NCBI GenBank assembly: GCA_947169265.1
Contig: CAMVPC010000021.1
Location: forward strand, 1 to 62,611
Direction: 5' to 3'
Length of the DNA stretch: 62,611 nt
Source: an uncultured Prevotellaceae bacterium
GTDB lineage: Bacteria > Bacteroidota > Bacteroidia > Bacteroidales > Muribaculaceae
The position numbers and the translations under genes are program-made. Position 1 is the stretch's first letter; each line of letters starts with the position of its first letter. Positions 15,002 to 62,611 of this stretch are shown here, one piece after another. Under the pieces are notes generated by a model, which saw only the letters and a program-made list of their open reading frames with translations, was not told where the DNA came from and made no database searches.

Positions 15002-15122
15002 TGTCTTACGATTTTTTTGATAAAAGGTAGATATTTTTGTGTAAAATTACAACATAAAATAAATGTCCCCGAAGAACTGCAAGGTTGTTGTTTTTAGGTT
15101 TTGCCGAAAACTACCCAAATGT

Positions 15123-15298
15123 GCTCGAAGTTACGCGGCACCTCGGCAATAAAAATGAAAAACTTCGTGTTTCATTTTGTATTGCGCTCGGTTTGCAGTA
15201 ACGTTGAGGCGGGGGCTCGAAGTTACGCGGCACCTCGGCAATAAAAATGAAAAACTTCGTGTTTCATTTTGTATTGCGCTCGGTTTGCAGTAACTTTG
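15123..15298 (+). repeat. palindromic promoter repeat, array A (two copies)
   Basis: Two 71-base imperfect palindromes at 15131-15201 and 15223-15293, period 92, each beginning TTACGCGG and ending TTTGCAGTAA, with GCTCGAAG before each. The arms pair CGGCAAT with ATTGCGCTCGG around ATGAAA...TTTCAT. Copy 2 ends in a full promoter, TTTG (15268-15271), 19 bases, TAACTTTG (15291-15298); copy 1 has the defective TAACGTTG. The array fills most of the 304-base gap 15002-15305; the remainder is AT-rich leader of the minus-strand TPR gene with no coding signal. Confidence 0.9.
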
Positions 15299-15305
15299 TG
15301 GCAGG

Positions 15306-15866
15306 ATGCGTTACTTGGTAAGCGAAGAGATATGGAATTTCGGGCTCGATGAGGCACTGGCGGCAATGCCGGCATGGCGCCGCGACGAGGTGTCACACTA
15401 TCGCCGCGAGGTGGACCGGCGCGTGCGCGTCGTGGCCCACGGCTTGTTGCGCAGGCTACTCAACGAGGAATATAACTTGGAACTTGACACACTGCGGGTG
15501 GCACGTGGCGAGCACGGGAAACCGTTTTTCCCCGACTTTCCCCACGTCCACTTCAACGTGAGCCACTGCGACCTGGCTGTGGCATGCGTCGTGGCCTCAA
15601 CTCCCGTGGGCATTGACGTGGAAACGGTTGCGCCCCTTGACATGGAGGTGGCGCGGCGCGTGCTCAGCGATAACGAACTGCGTGACGTGCTCGCCGCGCC
15701 GCGCCCCGATGTGGCTTTCACCCGCTTGTGGACACTCAAAGAGAGCTATCTCAAACTGCTGGGCACCGGCCTGATCGACGATATCAAAGCCCTTATTGTA
15801 CCGGCCGGCCGCACCCGGTCGGTAGTCCTCACTACTACGCGTTACGCTCTCGCTATCAGCCAATAG
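15306..15866 (+). CDS. Sfp-type 4'-phosphopantetheinyl transferase
   Basis: Moves the phosphopantetheine arm from CoA to a carrier-protein serine. The pseudo-dimeric Sfp motifs are present: FNVSH (residues 83-87), GIDVE (102-106, metal-binding Asp) and WTLKESYLK (142-150). The 186-residue length is short for Sfp but fits the compact Bacteroidetes type. The ATG at 15306 lies only 7 bases after the -7 element of repeat array A, so its mRNA should have almost no leader. It converges on the S41 protease gene with 6 bases between stops. The target could be the fatty-acid ACP, since no NRPS or PKS is nearby. Confidence 0.88.
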   Translation: MRYLVSEEIWNFGLDEALAAMPAWRRDEVSHYRREVDRRVRVVAHGLLRRLLNEEYNLELDTLRVARGEHGKPFFPDFPHVHFNVSHCDLAVACVVASTPVGIDVETVAPLDMEVARRVLSDNELRDVLAAPRPDVAFTRLWTLKESYLKLLGTGLIDDIKALIVPAGRTRSVVLTTTRYALAISQ

Positions 15867-58315: not shown

Positions 58316-58987
58316 TCAAATCAATATTCCTTTCTCCACCACCTCGAGAATATCGGCCGGACGGTTCACTATCACGCTCGCGTGATATTCGTTGAGCTCT
58401 TTCTCGGGACGGAAGCCCCACGTCACGCCCACCGAATCGACACAGGCGCGACGCGCCGTTTCCATGTCGACTCCCGAGTCGCCCACATAGAGCACCTCGC
58501 TCTTGGGCATGCGGGCCTCGGCCAGGATTTGGAACACGATAGAGGGGTCGGGCTTAACGGGGATGCCCTCGTTCTGCCCCAGGATGGCCACGAAATCGTG
58601 GTGTCCGAAAAAGTGGCCGATGATGTCGTTCACAGCTCGCTGATATTTGTTGGAGGCCACGGCGAGTTTCACGTCGCGCGCCCGCAGCTCGTCGAGCAGC
58701 TCGGGAATACCGTCGTAAGGGCGCGTATATTCGGTATCGTGCTCGTCGTAGTAGGCCTTGAAATCCTTGAGCAACGCCTCGACGATATCGGGGGTGCGCG
58801 CGTCCTCGGGGAGCACACGCTCGATGAGGCGCTTCACGCCATTACCCACAAAGAACGGGTAGCTCGCCATGCTCAGCGTGGCGTAGCCATGCGCCTCCAG
58901 CGCATAGTTGGCGGCGTGTCCCAGGTCCTCAATCGTGTTGAGCAAAGTACCGTCGAGGTCAAAAATCACCAGTTTTTTCATGCTCAT
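58316..58987 (-). CDS. gph: HAD phosphatase, phosphoglycolate phosphatase-like
   Basis: A 223-residue HAD hydrolase. Motif I is FDLDGTLLNT (nucleophile Asp), motif II is VASNKYQ, motif III the later Lys, motif IV VGDSGVDMETARRA. The cap-domain FVGNGVKRLIERVLPED is the hallmark of phosphoglycolate phosphatase. The start at 58987 overlaps the speA stop by 4 bases. Substrate other than 2-phosphoglycolate is possible. Confidence 0.88.
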   Translation of the reverse strand: MSMKKLVIFDLDGTLLNTIEDLGHAANYALEAHGYATLSMASYPFFVGNGVKRLIERVLPEDARTPDIVEALLKDFKAYYDEHDTEYTRPYDGIPELLDELRARDVKLAVASNKYQRAVNDIIGHFFGHHDFVAILGQNEGIPVKPDPSIVFQILAEARMPKSEVLYVGDSGVDMETARRACVDSVGVTWGFRPEKELNEYHASVIVNRPADILEVVEKGILI

Positions 58988-60936
58988 TGCCTATTGCGTT
59001 CAAGATAGGTGTAACCATAGAGGCCGCTGCGGTAGTTGCGCACGAACTCGTTGCCCTCTTCGGCCGTAATCTTGCCATTACGCACCGAGTCGGCCACCCA
59101 CGACTCGACGTTGCGCACCAGCTCCTTGGGACTGAACTGCACATAGTCGAGCACCTCGGCCACCGTTTCGCCGTCGATGACCTGGTCTATTTCGTAATGA
59201 TCCTTATACACGTCGATGTGCACCGCGTTAGTGTCGCCGAACAGGTTGTGCATATCGCCCAAAATCTCCTGATAGGCACCCACGAGGAACACGCCCAGAT
59301 AGTAGTGCTCGCCGTCTTTGAGCCGATGCACGGGAAGGGCGTGCGACACACCCTGCGTCGAAATGAAACACCCTATCTTGCCGTCGCTGTCGCAAGTGAT
59401 ATCCTGCAACGTCGCCATGCGGTCGGGGCGCTCGGCGAGGCGGTCGATGGGCACCACGGGGAACACCTGGTCGATGGCCCAAAGGTCGGGCAGCGACTGG
59501 AAGAGCGAAAAGTTGCAAAAGTACTTCTCGGGCAACATGCGCGACACACTGCGCAGCTCCTGCGGCGCGTGTTTCATGTCGCTGGCGATGAGATTCACCT
59601 CGCGGGCCACGCTCCAAAAGAGTTTCTCGACGAGAGCGCGTGTGCGCAGGTCAATCAGCCCGAGGCTGAAGCGGTCGAGAGCCTCCTCGCGGATTTGCAG
59701 CGCATCGTGCCAGTCCTCGAGCAAGCGGGCCTGGTTGATCTTATCCCAAATCTCGTAGAGGTCGCGCACCAACTCGTTCTCGTCGTCGCCCAGCGTATCG
59801 CGGTCCTCGTCCCACTCGGGCAGGCACGCCGTCTCGAGCACCTCGACCACGAGCACGCTGTGGTGGGCGGTGAGGGCGCGGCCGCTCTCGGTGATAATAT
59901 TGGGATGCTTGAGTCCGTTTTTCTCGCAGGCGTCGACGAGCTGATAGATGGAGTCGTTGACATATTCCTGGATAGAATAGTTCATGCTGTGTTCGCTCGC
60001 GCTGTTGCGCGTGCCGTCGTAGTCCACGCCCAAGCCGCCGCCAATGTCGATAAACTCCAACTCAAAGCCCATGCGGCTCAGCTGCACATAGAACTGGCAT
60101 GCCTCTCGCAACGCGTTCTTGATGCGACGTATCTTGGTGATTTGGCTGCCGATGTGAAAGTGGATGAGCTTGAGGCAATCGCCCATCTTGTGCTCGTTGA
60201 GGAACTCAAGGGCGCTTTGCAACTCGCTGGTGTTCAAGCCAAACTTGCTGCGGTCGCCGCCGCTCTCCTCCCACTTGCCGCTGCCGCTGCTGGCAATCTT
60301 GATGCGGATGCCCAGGTTGGGCCTGATGCCCAGCCGCATGGCCACGTCGCTGATGAGCTGCAACTCGTTGAGCTTCTCGACCACGAGGAAGACGCGGCGT
60401 CCCATCTTTTGCGCCAGTAGGGCCAGCTCCACATAGTTCTCGTCCTTATAGCCGTTGCAAATAATGAGCGACTTGTCGCTGTAAGAACCCATGTTCATGG
60501 CCAGCACAGCGTGCAACTCGGGCTTGGAGCCGGCCTCAAGGCCAATGTTGAACTTCTTGCCGTGGCCCACGATTTCCTCCACCACCTGCCGCATTTGGTT
60601 CACCTTAATGGGATAGACGATAAAGTTTTGCGCCTTGTAGTCATATTCCTTGGCGGCCCGCTTGAAACAGCTGGCAATCTTCTCGATGCGATTATCGAGA
60701 ATATCGGGGAAACGCAACAAGATGGGCGCCGTGATGTTGCGCGTGCGCAATTCGTTCATCACGTCCACCAGGTCAACACCGGCATAGGTCTGCTTGGGGG
60801 TCACCACAATGTGCCCCTTATCATTGATTGAGAAATATTTGAGGCCCCAACCATGAATGTTATACAATTCGGCGCTGTCCTCCACGCGCCACTTGCTTAT
60901 GCTGCTCGTAGTAGTAATTTTTTGAGGGTTGTACAA
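58984..60936 (-). CDS. speA: biosynthetic arginine decarboxylase
   Basis: PLP enzyme turning arginine into agmatine, the first step of spermidine synthesis in this phylum. The fold-III barrel shows IVYPIKVNQ (PLP lysine), the Gly-rich FIDIGGGLGVDYDGT, and ESGRALTAHHSVLVVEVLE; the long insert and C-terminal WSIAREVN-type region are in place. The start is unusual: the conserved N-terminus SKWRVEDSAELYNIHGWG has no ATG before it. The TTG at 60936 (used here) lies 9 bases after the repeat-borne -7 element; an ATA at 60900 just before SKWRVEDS is a non-standard alternative. It leads the gph/transporter/PPTase/zinc-ribbon operon. Confidence 0.93.
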   Translation of the reverse strand: MYNPQKITTTSSISKWRVEDSAELYNIHGWGLKYFSINDKGHIVVTPKQTYAGVDLVDVMNELRTRNITAPILLRFPDILDNRIEKIASCFKRAAKEYDYKAQNFIVYPIKVNQMRQVVEEIVGHGKKFNIGLEAGSKPELHAVLAMNMGSYSDKSLIICNGYKDENYVELALLAQKMGRRVFLVVEKLNELQLISDVAMRLGIRPNLGIRIKIASSGSGKWEESGGDRSKFGLNTSELQSALEFLNEHKMGDCLKLIHFHIGSQITKIRRIKNALREACQFYVQLSRMGFELEFIDIGGGLGVDYDGTRNSASEHSMNYSIQEYVNDSIYQLVDACEKNGLKHPNIITESGRALTAHHSVLVVEVLETACLPEWDEDRDTLGDDENELVRDLYEIWDKINQARLLEDWHDALQIREEALDRFSLGLIDLRTRALVEKLFWSVAREVNLIASDMKHAPQELRSVSRMLPEKYFCNFSLFQSLPDLWAIDQVFPVVPIDRLAERPDRMATLQDITCDSDGKIGCFISTQGVSHALPVHRLKDGEHYYLGVFLVGAYQEILGDMHNLFGDTNAVHIDVYKDHYEIDQVIDGETVAEVLDYVQFSPKELVRNVESWVADSVRNGKITAEEGNEFVRNYRSGLYGYTYLERNRQ

Positions 60937-60945
60937 TTCAATCTG

Positions 60946-61065
60946 CAAAATTACTGCAAACCGAGCGCAATACAAAATGAAAAATCCTTTTTTTCATTTT
61001 TATTGCCGAGGTGAAGCGTAATTTCGCCCCACAAGGGCAACATTACTGCAAACCGAGCGCAATAG
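60946..61065 (-). repeat. palindromic promoter repeat, array B (one full and one truncated copy)
   Basis: On the minus strand a full 71-base palindrome (61021-60951) starts TTACGCTTCACCTCGG and ends TTTGCAGTAA, with TTTG (60976-60973), 19 bases and TAATTTTG (60953-60946) as a complete promoter for speA. Upstream, 92 bases away, only the right half of another copy remains (61065-61043), ending in the defective TAATGTTG. The truncation point lies at the edge of the AT-rich orphan segment. Confidence 0.9.
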
Positions 61066-61079
61066 AAAAAAGGGGGCAC

Positions 61080-62212: not shown

Positions 62213-62230
62213 AATCGCCTGTCGGCGATT
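62213..62230. terminator. small hairpin beside array C
   Basis: AATCGCC-TGTC-GGCGATT, a 7-bp perfect stem with a 4-base loop, just before array C. The 61970-62552 stretch otherwise holds only low-complexity AT-rich DNA, the repeats listed here and no gene I can support. Confidence 0.4.
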
Positions 62231-62238
62231 TGGCGCAA

Positions 62239-62498
62239 TTACGCGGCAACTTCGGCAACAAAAATGAAAAATATTTATTTTTCATTTTGTGTTGCGCTCG
62301 GTTTGCAGTAATGTTGCCCGAGGGGGCGAAATTACGCGGCACCTCGGCAACAAAAATGAAAAAATGGATTTTTCATTTTGTGTTGCGCTCGGTTTGCAGT
62401 AATGTTGCCCGAGGGGGCGAAATTACGCGGCACCTCGGCAACAAAAATGAAAAAATGGATTTTTCATTTTGTGTTGCGCTCGGTTTGCAGTAATTTTG
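62239..62498 (+). repeat. palindromic promoter repeat, array C (three copies)
   Basis: Three copies at 62239-62311, 62332-62402 and 62423-62493, spaced 93 and 91 bases, in plus orientation. Arms carry CGGCAAC and GTTGCGCTCGG. Copies 1 and 2 end in the defective TAATGTTG and continue GCCCGAGGGGGCGAAA; copy 3 ends with a complete promoter, TTTG (62468-62471), 19 bases, TAATTTTG (62491-62498). Confidence 0.92.
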
Positions 62499-62552
62499 CA
62501 GCATTCTATTCACATCGTCACTTTTCCTGTTTTCCGCAATGAGCCCCACAAA

Positions 62553-62611
62553 TCACTTTTGGGCGATTTCGACAAGTAGTTGCTGTTCGCTTGACATCTT
62601 CAGCACGGTGG
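62553..62611 (-). CDS. 3' end of a gene running off the window
   Basis: The minus strand reads TVLKMSSEQQLLVEIAQK then TGA (stop complement at 62553-62555), with codons of the host's GC-rich style. Only 19 residues are inside the window, so the product cannot be named. The plus strand of this segment also opens at ATG 62540 but uses poor codons. Confidence 0.4.
   Translation of the reverse strand, partial: TVLKMSSEQQLLVEIAQK

Follow-up and report, generated by a model that had tools for sequence, protein, structure and literature searches.

Putative mobile promoters, i.e., similar promoter-bearing intergenic sequences standing before non-homologous genes, were reportedly described by Matus-Garcia et al. 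in 2012 ('Promoter propagation in prokaryotes'). The Correia elements of Neisseria are small, consist of inverted repeats and bear terminal promoters; they are not known to reconstruct the core box of a promoter that was already in place. Insertion sequences of the IS200/IS605 type have hairpin ends, and their guide bases pair with the cleavage or target site. The REPIN/REP-RAYT system comprises short, dispersed, imperfect palindromes that also form tandem units (PMC8049555, PMC6006769, PMC3733652), and in the available part of its description a REP sequence is a palindrome of 20-40 nt, one end of which bears a GTAG/CGTC tag (PMC3733652). The BrickBuilt MITE of Porphyromonas gingivalis is intergenic, has promoter activity and may drive the downstream gene; the accessible sections of that report describe a 23-nt minisatellite inside the MITE, bidirectional promoters and a distance of 49-591 nt from coding sequences (PMC4596501).

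Here we describe a palindromic repeat in a 62,611-nt stretch of DNA (the window), contig C21 in a genome of 2.9 Mb on 74 contigs. The unit is an imperfect palindrome of about 71 nt; it is small, non-coding and dispersed and has inverted symmetry, as MITEs do. As with the putative mobile promoters, similar intergenic copies that bear a promoter lie in front of genes of one genome that are not homologous; the repeat differs from those promoters in its defined palindrome, a left arm that mirrors the promoter box, an insertion site within the core box, arrays with one intact end and its occurrence with two sigma classes. The likeness to Correia elements lies in small inverted repeats with end promoters. 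From REPIN/RAYT the repeat is distinguished by its position at gene starts, its promoter boxes and its locus-dependent arms, and our search found no link to a RAYT; its ends, CGAAnnTA and TAnnTTTG, are not the REP tag, and the palindrome is longer than that of REP. BrickBuilt likewise belongs to the Bacteroidota, is intergenic and bears promoters (here predicted), but the period of the present repeat is 91-92 nt instead of 23 nt, and the available part of the BrickBuilt report contains no core-box insertion (PMC4596501). A literature search outside subscription papers, which included a search for stretches of the repeat itself, returned no recognisable description.

The preliminary description of the window reported three short tandem arrays of a 71-nt palindrome, TTACGC...GCAGTAA, with the last copy of each ending in TTTG-N19-TAnnTTTG. 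The palindrome is real (Table 1), and the ending was matched in all three terminal copies (15268-15298, + strand; 60946-60976, - strand; 62468-62498, + strand). The tandem arrangement holds for arrays 1 and 3 but not for array 2, which has one full unit and a right half. Copies within one array are almost identical, and the interior copies of the window end in TAnnGTTG, i.e., in a broken -7 box. A genome-wide count gave 13 copies of the 18-nt end GCGCTCGGTTTGCAGTAA and none of its reversed control, and four units folded as single-stranded DNA gave z values of -3.4 to -4.4.

Table 1. Repeat units, predicted promoter boxes and neighbouring genes in the window
Feature	Position	Strand	Remark
Array 1, unit 1	15121..15208	+	palindrome 15131-15201
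Array 1, unit 1, right end TAACGTTG	15199-15206	+	-7 box broken
Array 1, unit 2, terminal	15213..15300	+	palindrome 15223-15293
Array 1, terminal promoter, -33 TTTG	15268..15271	+	predicted from sequence and consensus (available part of PMC7366714)
Array 1, -7 box TAACTTTG	15291..15298	+	ATG at 15306, 7 nt further
Array 1, downstream gene, putative phosphopantetheinyl transferase	15306..15866	+	name from the preliminary description
Array 2, terminal unit, sole full unit of the array	60944..61031	-	
Array 2, -7 box TAATTTTG	60946..60953	-	
Array 2, -33 TTTG	60973..60976	-	
Array 2, upstream copy, right half only	61037..61069	-	-7 box broken (TAATGTTG)
Array 2, downstream gene, speA-type	58984..60936	-	name from the preliminary description and by eye; start uncertain
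Array 3, unit 1	62229..62318	+	right end TAATGTTG
Array 3, unit 2	62322..62409	+	right end TAATGTTG
Array 3, unit 3, terminal	62413..62500	+	
Array 3, -33 TTTG	62468..62471	+	
Array 3, -7 box TAATTTTG	62491..62498	+	

Array 3 has no gene downstream within the window. Contig C65 carries array 3 and its next 26 nt, followed by an RluA-like gene, and the final 85 nt of the window are unlike C65 (window 62413-62611, C65 94-332). Since array 3 and these 26 nt are present twice and the DNA beyond them differs, the contig end appears to be either an assembly break or a strain variant. The speA-type gene has no ATG at its expected start (about 60890-60936), where ACG stands instead of the ATG of the close relative G027. 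At several downstream genes an ATG lies 2-5 nt past the terminal unit (15306 in the window; also L137, L081, L129, L138 and L134), so their mRNAs may be leaderless.

The family proved larger than the preliminary description had it. With a covariance model built from 15 units of the genome itself, 93 whole-genome matches on many contigs were obtained, against 49 by BLAST, reverse self-matches included, and 37 arrays were catalogued, not counting a fragment with which contig C39 ends. Mapping of the copies relative to gene starts showed that in 34 of the 37 arrays a frame of 70 aa or more, opened by ATG, GTG or TTG, begins at most 120 nt downstream of the terminal unit; array 3, where the contig ends, is among the three others. 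The genes that follow, whose proteins were named by eye, include eno, pheS, uvrA, panC, panB, obg, glyS and nusB. When arrays with at least 300 nt on the side in question were counted, an ATG-initiated frame of at least 60 aa lay within 60 nt downstream in 27/39 arrays of this genome and 45/60 of the relatives; the divergent side had such a frame in 5/37 and 6/53, respectively.

Among 61 genomes of the relatives set, 35 match, i.e., two of 24 from other families and 33 of 37 from the genus, with the genome of the window counted among the latter. The number of matches per genome within the genus ranges from 0 to 69, and such numbers can count a palindrome on both strands. In a sample of the whole order Bacteroidales, with at most 17 candidates scored per genome, 17 of 247 genomes match, from 11 genera and 11 families; three genomes from other genera of the same family gave no match in this order-wide sample, among those listed. 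Named carriers are Muribaculaceae MAGs, several of them from the rumen, Prevotellamassilia timonensis and Prevotella sp. P5-108, and in the units read from distant families the plan is the same but the core has diverged. Viral or plasmid-borne spread was considered and rejected: IMG/VR holds no exact match to two repeat patterns, the plasmids none, and the sole match in the phage collection, MT839029.1, is filed as Bacteriophage sp. Because its frames read by eye as the end of DnaE followed by thioredoxin, this entry is probably a Bacteroides-like chromosome piece and not a phage.

In the available part of its description, the consensus of the primary sigma factor (sigma-ABfr) has TTTG near -33 and TAnnTTTG at -7 (PMC7366714). 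Judged by its letters, the end of the terminal unit is a match to this consensus. TAnnTTTG ends the terminal unit in 30 of 40 arrays of this genome, a total that exceeds the catalogue since weak hits on contig C35 were added, and in 59 of 60 arrays of the relatives, which is an upper view since these arrays are the best scorers among the matches listed; moreover, the model itself was built from terminal units and favours such ends. The terminal units without it are three incomplete matches and those of eight other arrays of this genome, seven on C35 and one on C6. Of the 89 terminal units with a -7 box, 85 have TTTG 19 or 20 nt ahead of it (shuffle mean 3.5, maximum 9), although their inner hairpins are of several different types. 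Interior units end in TAnnTTTG in 2/27 cases in this genome and 8/36 in the relatives (10/63 together), where the relatives' interior units passed the same filter as their terminal units; the commonest change is GTTG. Units were dropped from these counts if they overlapped a better match, were shorter than 60 nt or were duplicated between overlapping loci. Read outward, the left arm gives TAnnTTCG 79 times, TTAT 20 times and TTGG 15 times, and TAnnTTTG in none of 163 units, of which 19 are without a readable TAnn. As the upstream box is usually broken and the left arm differs at the key base, a single intact promoter sequence is left in most arrays, on the side that faces the gene.

The core of the unit is asymmetric, with GGCKGCACCTCRGC on the left and GCNYTCGGTTKGCAC on the right. 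The palindrome covaries: 28 double-sided changes were counted over 30 named pairs in the 15 units of this genome (shuffle mean 7.4; 0 of 500 shuffles reached it). Among the 93 distinct terminal units of this genome and its relatives, 82 have a left arm complementary to both free letters of the -7 box (shuffle mean 28, maximum 38), and no G-T pair occurs at these columns; interior units pair less well (37/59). At column 7, the base that would turn the left arm into an outward promoter, a mismatch persists, and A stands opposite the right-hand T in 5/93. Complementarity of this kind without G-T pairs points to pairing or copying at the level of DNA. It recalls the guide bases of IS200/IS605, but it could also arise by copying, and we use the likeness as an analogy.

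A structured RNA, or a terminator of the upstream gene, is scarcely credible as an explanation of the repeat. The hairpin is strong, and the available part of one survey lists candidate RNAs that are palindromic, lie close to ruvA and tonB in Bacteroidetes and might include such elements (PMC8040213). The right arm is promoter-like, which would put the hairpin upstream of the expected start site, and the varying free-letter columns of terminal units have no G-U. Rfam gave no match at gathering score in the window, and a miRNA match far below threshold was the sole result in eight loci. No consistent T-run was seen by eye, and the terminator was rejected. Similarly, the known order of the attC boxes served to set aside an integron attC, since the GTTAGGC-like left end reverses it (by eye). 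A separate observation was made on contig C54 (L140, about 2320-2370), where a single copy of a sequence that we take to resemble a Bacteroidota type II-C CRISPR repeat lies near an array, with TATCTTTG inside; it is a hairpin with a built-in -7 box.

Promoters of sigma-54 have the consensus TTGGCAC-N5-TTGC. The common core followed by TTGGCAC-N4-TTTGC, with at most one mismatch, was found in 30/61 same-genus genomes, where many hits are primary-sigma copies one mismatch away. Reading of 15 places located the common core at sigma-54-type promoters, namely at what appears by eye to be one locus in nine genomes (decayed in G032), at panC in three genomes, at an asd-type gene in G033 and at two less clear sites. 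At the main locus and asd, the -12 TTGC is present in 0/11 upstream copies and in 10/10 terminal copies, in which the search itself required it; in G009 the terminal copy itself is broken. A second version of the palindrome, by its match to the consensus, thus appears to sit in sigma-54 promoters.

Orthologous promoters were compared for eno (22 of 24 matching genomes), panC (30 of 33) and speA (30 of 39), for ten genes in up to three relatives (27 of 35 matches) and for three genes in up to ten genomes (16 of 21). In sister species they have related leaders and different upstream DNA. At four loci with filled and empty versions the junctions fall inside the core box, with the native promoter on the left, the native leader on the right and a box on both sides; flanks, cut by hand, were tested against 2000 mononucleotide shuffles. 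The empty sigma-54 locus of G002 and G036 reads ...CCCACnTTGGCACGATAATTGCAG..., while G025 contains a clean 50-bp insert with the 13-bp direct repeat TTGGCACGATAAT on both sides, and G007, G017 and G304 have tandem units. The left flank of G025 scores 77 and 71 against G002 and G036 (shuffle means 12.2 and 11.3; 0/2000), and the right flank 61 and 37 (0/2000). At panC, the sigma-54-like promoter of G024 agrees with those of G032 and G036 on both flanks (0/2000).

The other two loci are speA and an RDD-type gene. For speA, G001 compared with G011 and G010 gave 0/2000 on the left and 1 and 6 of 2000 on the right; in the comparison with G030 the right flank alone was significant (left 160/2000). 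Three species have the native box TATTTTTG; in G001 its place is taken by TATATCTG to the left of the element and by TAATTTTG to the right. For the RDD-type gene, G027 was set against its close relative G000 (the genome of the window), from which the element distinguishes it; the flanks gave 1/2000 on the left and 5/2000 on the right. The rare native box TATTTTTG stands on both sides and is mirrored in the arm; the left flank is significant only with its box, and without its last 8 nt it is not (143/2000). The 13-bp repeat at the sigma-54 locus and the identical -7 box at RDD are possible duplications of the target, whereas the letters differ at speA and panC, and the source of the right-end letters, element or target, varies between loci. 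From the letters it looks as if the target box was duplicated at some loci and the element brought its own box at others. At the aminotransferase locus a loss must be added, since a -33 region is still present in the empty G027 and absent from the filled G000.

Two upstream regions showed features of their own. The panC promoter (L167-L196) is sigma-54-like in some species of the genus and of the TAnnTTTG type in others; its box is TATCTTTG without the element (G030, G001, G010) and TAATTTTG with it (G000, G027, G011). Upstream of eno, CAATCGGTTGCA was found in 8 of the 22 species listed (L152, L155, L158-L161, L163, L165), all of them element-free there, and it is possible that this is a regulator site displaced where the element sits.

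Near-identical inner hairpins occur at unrelated loci of the genome, in clusters of 11, 3, 3, 3, 3, 2 and 2 among 37, two members of the largest being one array on two contigs. In the relatives, whose compared units are top scorers, inner hairpins at least 85% alike make up 28.9% of 97 same-genome pairs versus 8.1% of 1673 between-genome pairs. With G000 included, which adds weaker types, the proportions are 10.2% and 6.8%, and the mean likeness is reversed (0.55 within genomes, 0.62 between them). G000 and G027 carry one inner type at uvrA and different inner types at obg, panB and panC, which indicates quick turnover.

The proposal of the preliminary description that the repeat is a dispersed, promoter-bearing and possibly mobile module is supported by the catalogue, the promoter counts, the filled and empty loci and the shared inner hairpins, all of them sequence comparisons. 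Its further claim that the module captured control of unrelated genes needs refining. At the four filled and empty loci the gene already had a promoter, which element-free relatives also possess; the element lies within its core box, with a mostly disabled native copy upstream and an intact copy towards the gene, and sigma-54 promoters are affected in the same way. A mobile but non-autonomous palindrome of Bacteroidales, aimed at core promoters and able to rebuild them, is in our view a reasonably probable explanation of the repeat. Its site of insertion would lie within the core box of a promoter already in place, i.e., the TTTG of TAnnTTTG or the sigma-54 -12 box. As the right end would supply or duplicate the upstream element and the box, a complete promoter sequence would be rebuilt in an unchanged place relative to the gene. 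The apparent rebuilding of a promoter-like sequence on the gene side, with transcription as a prediction, could explain the spread before essential genes without obvious silencing. Arrays may arise by repeated insertion or by tandem duplication at the gene-proximal box, and movement may proceed through a single-stranded hairpin with an enzyme acting in trans. The left arm, complementary to the target box, could serve as a guide by analogy with IS200/IS605; alternatively, the target may be copied during insertion, or the palindrome corrected later. In a more specific version, which we offer as a tentative possibility, the element is guide-directed: the left arm pairs with the target core box, a change of the arm retargets it between sigma factors, it inserts in single-stranded DNA, e.g., a melted promoter, and it duplicates the box, leaving a promoter that would work towards the gene alone.

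The repeat could instead have grown locally without transposition, right-half promoters becoming palindromes and arrays in place by slippage and quasi-palindrome template switching, with rare spread by gene conversion. Right-half-only promoters without a palindrome do exist (lpxH and lipK in G027; L051); they speak against a mobile palindrome and fit local growth or loss too. The arms match locus-specific letters, copies within an array are near-identical, and the direct repeat and inverted copy at the sigma-54 locus are the expected trace of double template switching. We nevertheless regard local growth as unlikely, since one asymmetric core recurs at unrelated loci, in two sigma classes and, diverged, in other families, inner types are common to unrelated loci of one genome, and inserts are found at RDD and speA promoters whose left flank is without the right half.

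Another reading is a host regulatory architecture, in which a cruciform or a bound protein would tune promoters, the palindrome would be kept for this role and mobility would be incidental. The covariation, in which G-T pairs are rare or absent, suggests that pairing of the DNA is under selection, and the palindrome is found at promoters of eno, glyS, pheS, obg and uvrA. The target genes are functionally unrelated, orthologous promoters of sister species are without the palindrome, matches vary within the one genus as given above, and inner types differ between G000 and G027 at obg, panB and panC; a regulatory role as the explanation seems distinctly unlikely to us.

Mobilisation as REPIN/REP elements by a RAYT (Y1 HUH) transposase is suggested by the imperfect palindrome, its conserved mismatches, the tandem units and the guide-like end complementarity, and we judge it very improbable. 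Y1_Tnp genes do not track the matches: the zero-match genomes G016, G031, G004 and G022 have 9, 8, 5 and 1 of them, and G029 (67 matches) and G013 (37 matches), both incomplete genomes, have none. The loci of 30 Y1 genes yielded one repeat hit at chance level (E 0.49). In addition, the palindrome stands before genes, while REP families lie near gene 3' ends according to the available part of one report (PMC3733652). No enzyme for the palindrome was found with Y1_Tnp, the one transposase family searched, and no autonomous partner with matching ends was seen at the Y1_Tnp loci and in one region of contig C35. On C35, where weak hits cluster, an autonomous element was considered and rejected, as ordinary frames and a Vsr-like protein were recognised by eye and none lay between arms.

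If a mobile palindrome rebuilds promoters as proposed, conserved palindromes upstream of Bacteroidota genes need not be operators or RNAs, and the fast change of upstream regions in these genomes would be explained. The guide-directed version would represent a selfish element that makes its own insertions harmless by design, and promoter targeting could provide a new way of directing DNA to promoters. Many housekeeping core promoters in gut and rumen Bacteroidales would have been rebuilt by a selfish element, repeatedly and differently between sister species, which would make these bacteria a natural experiment on promoter evolution.
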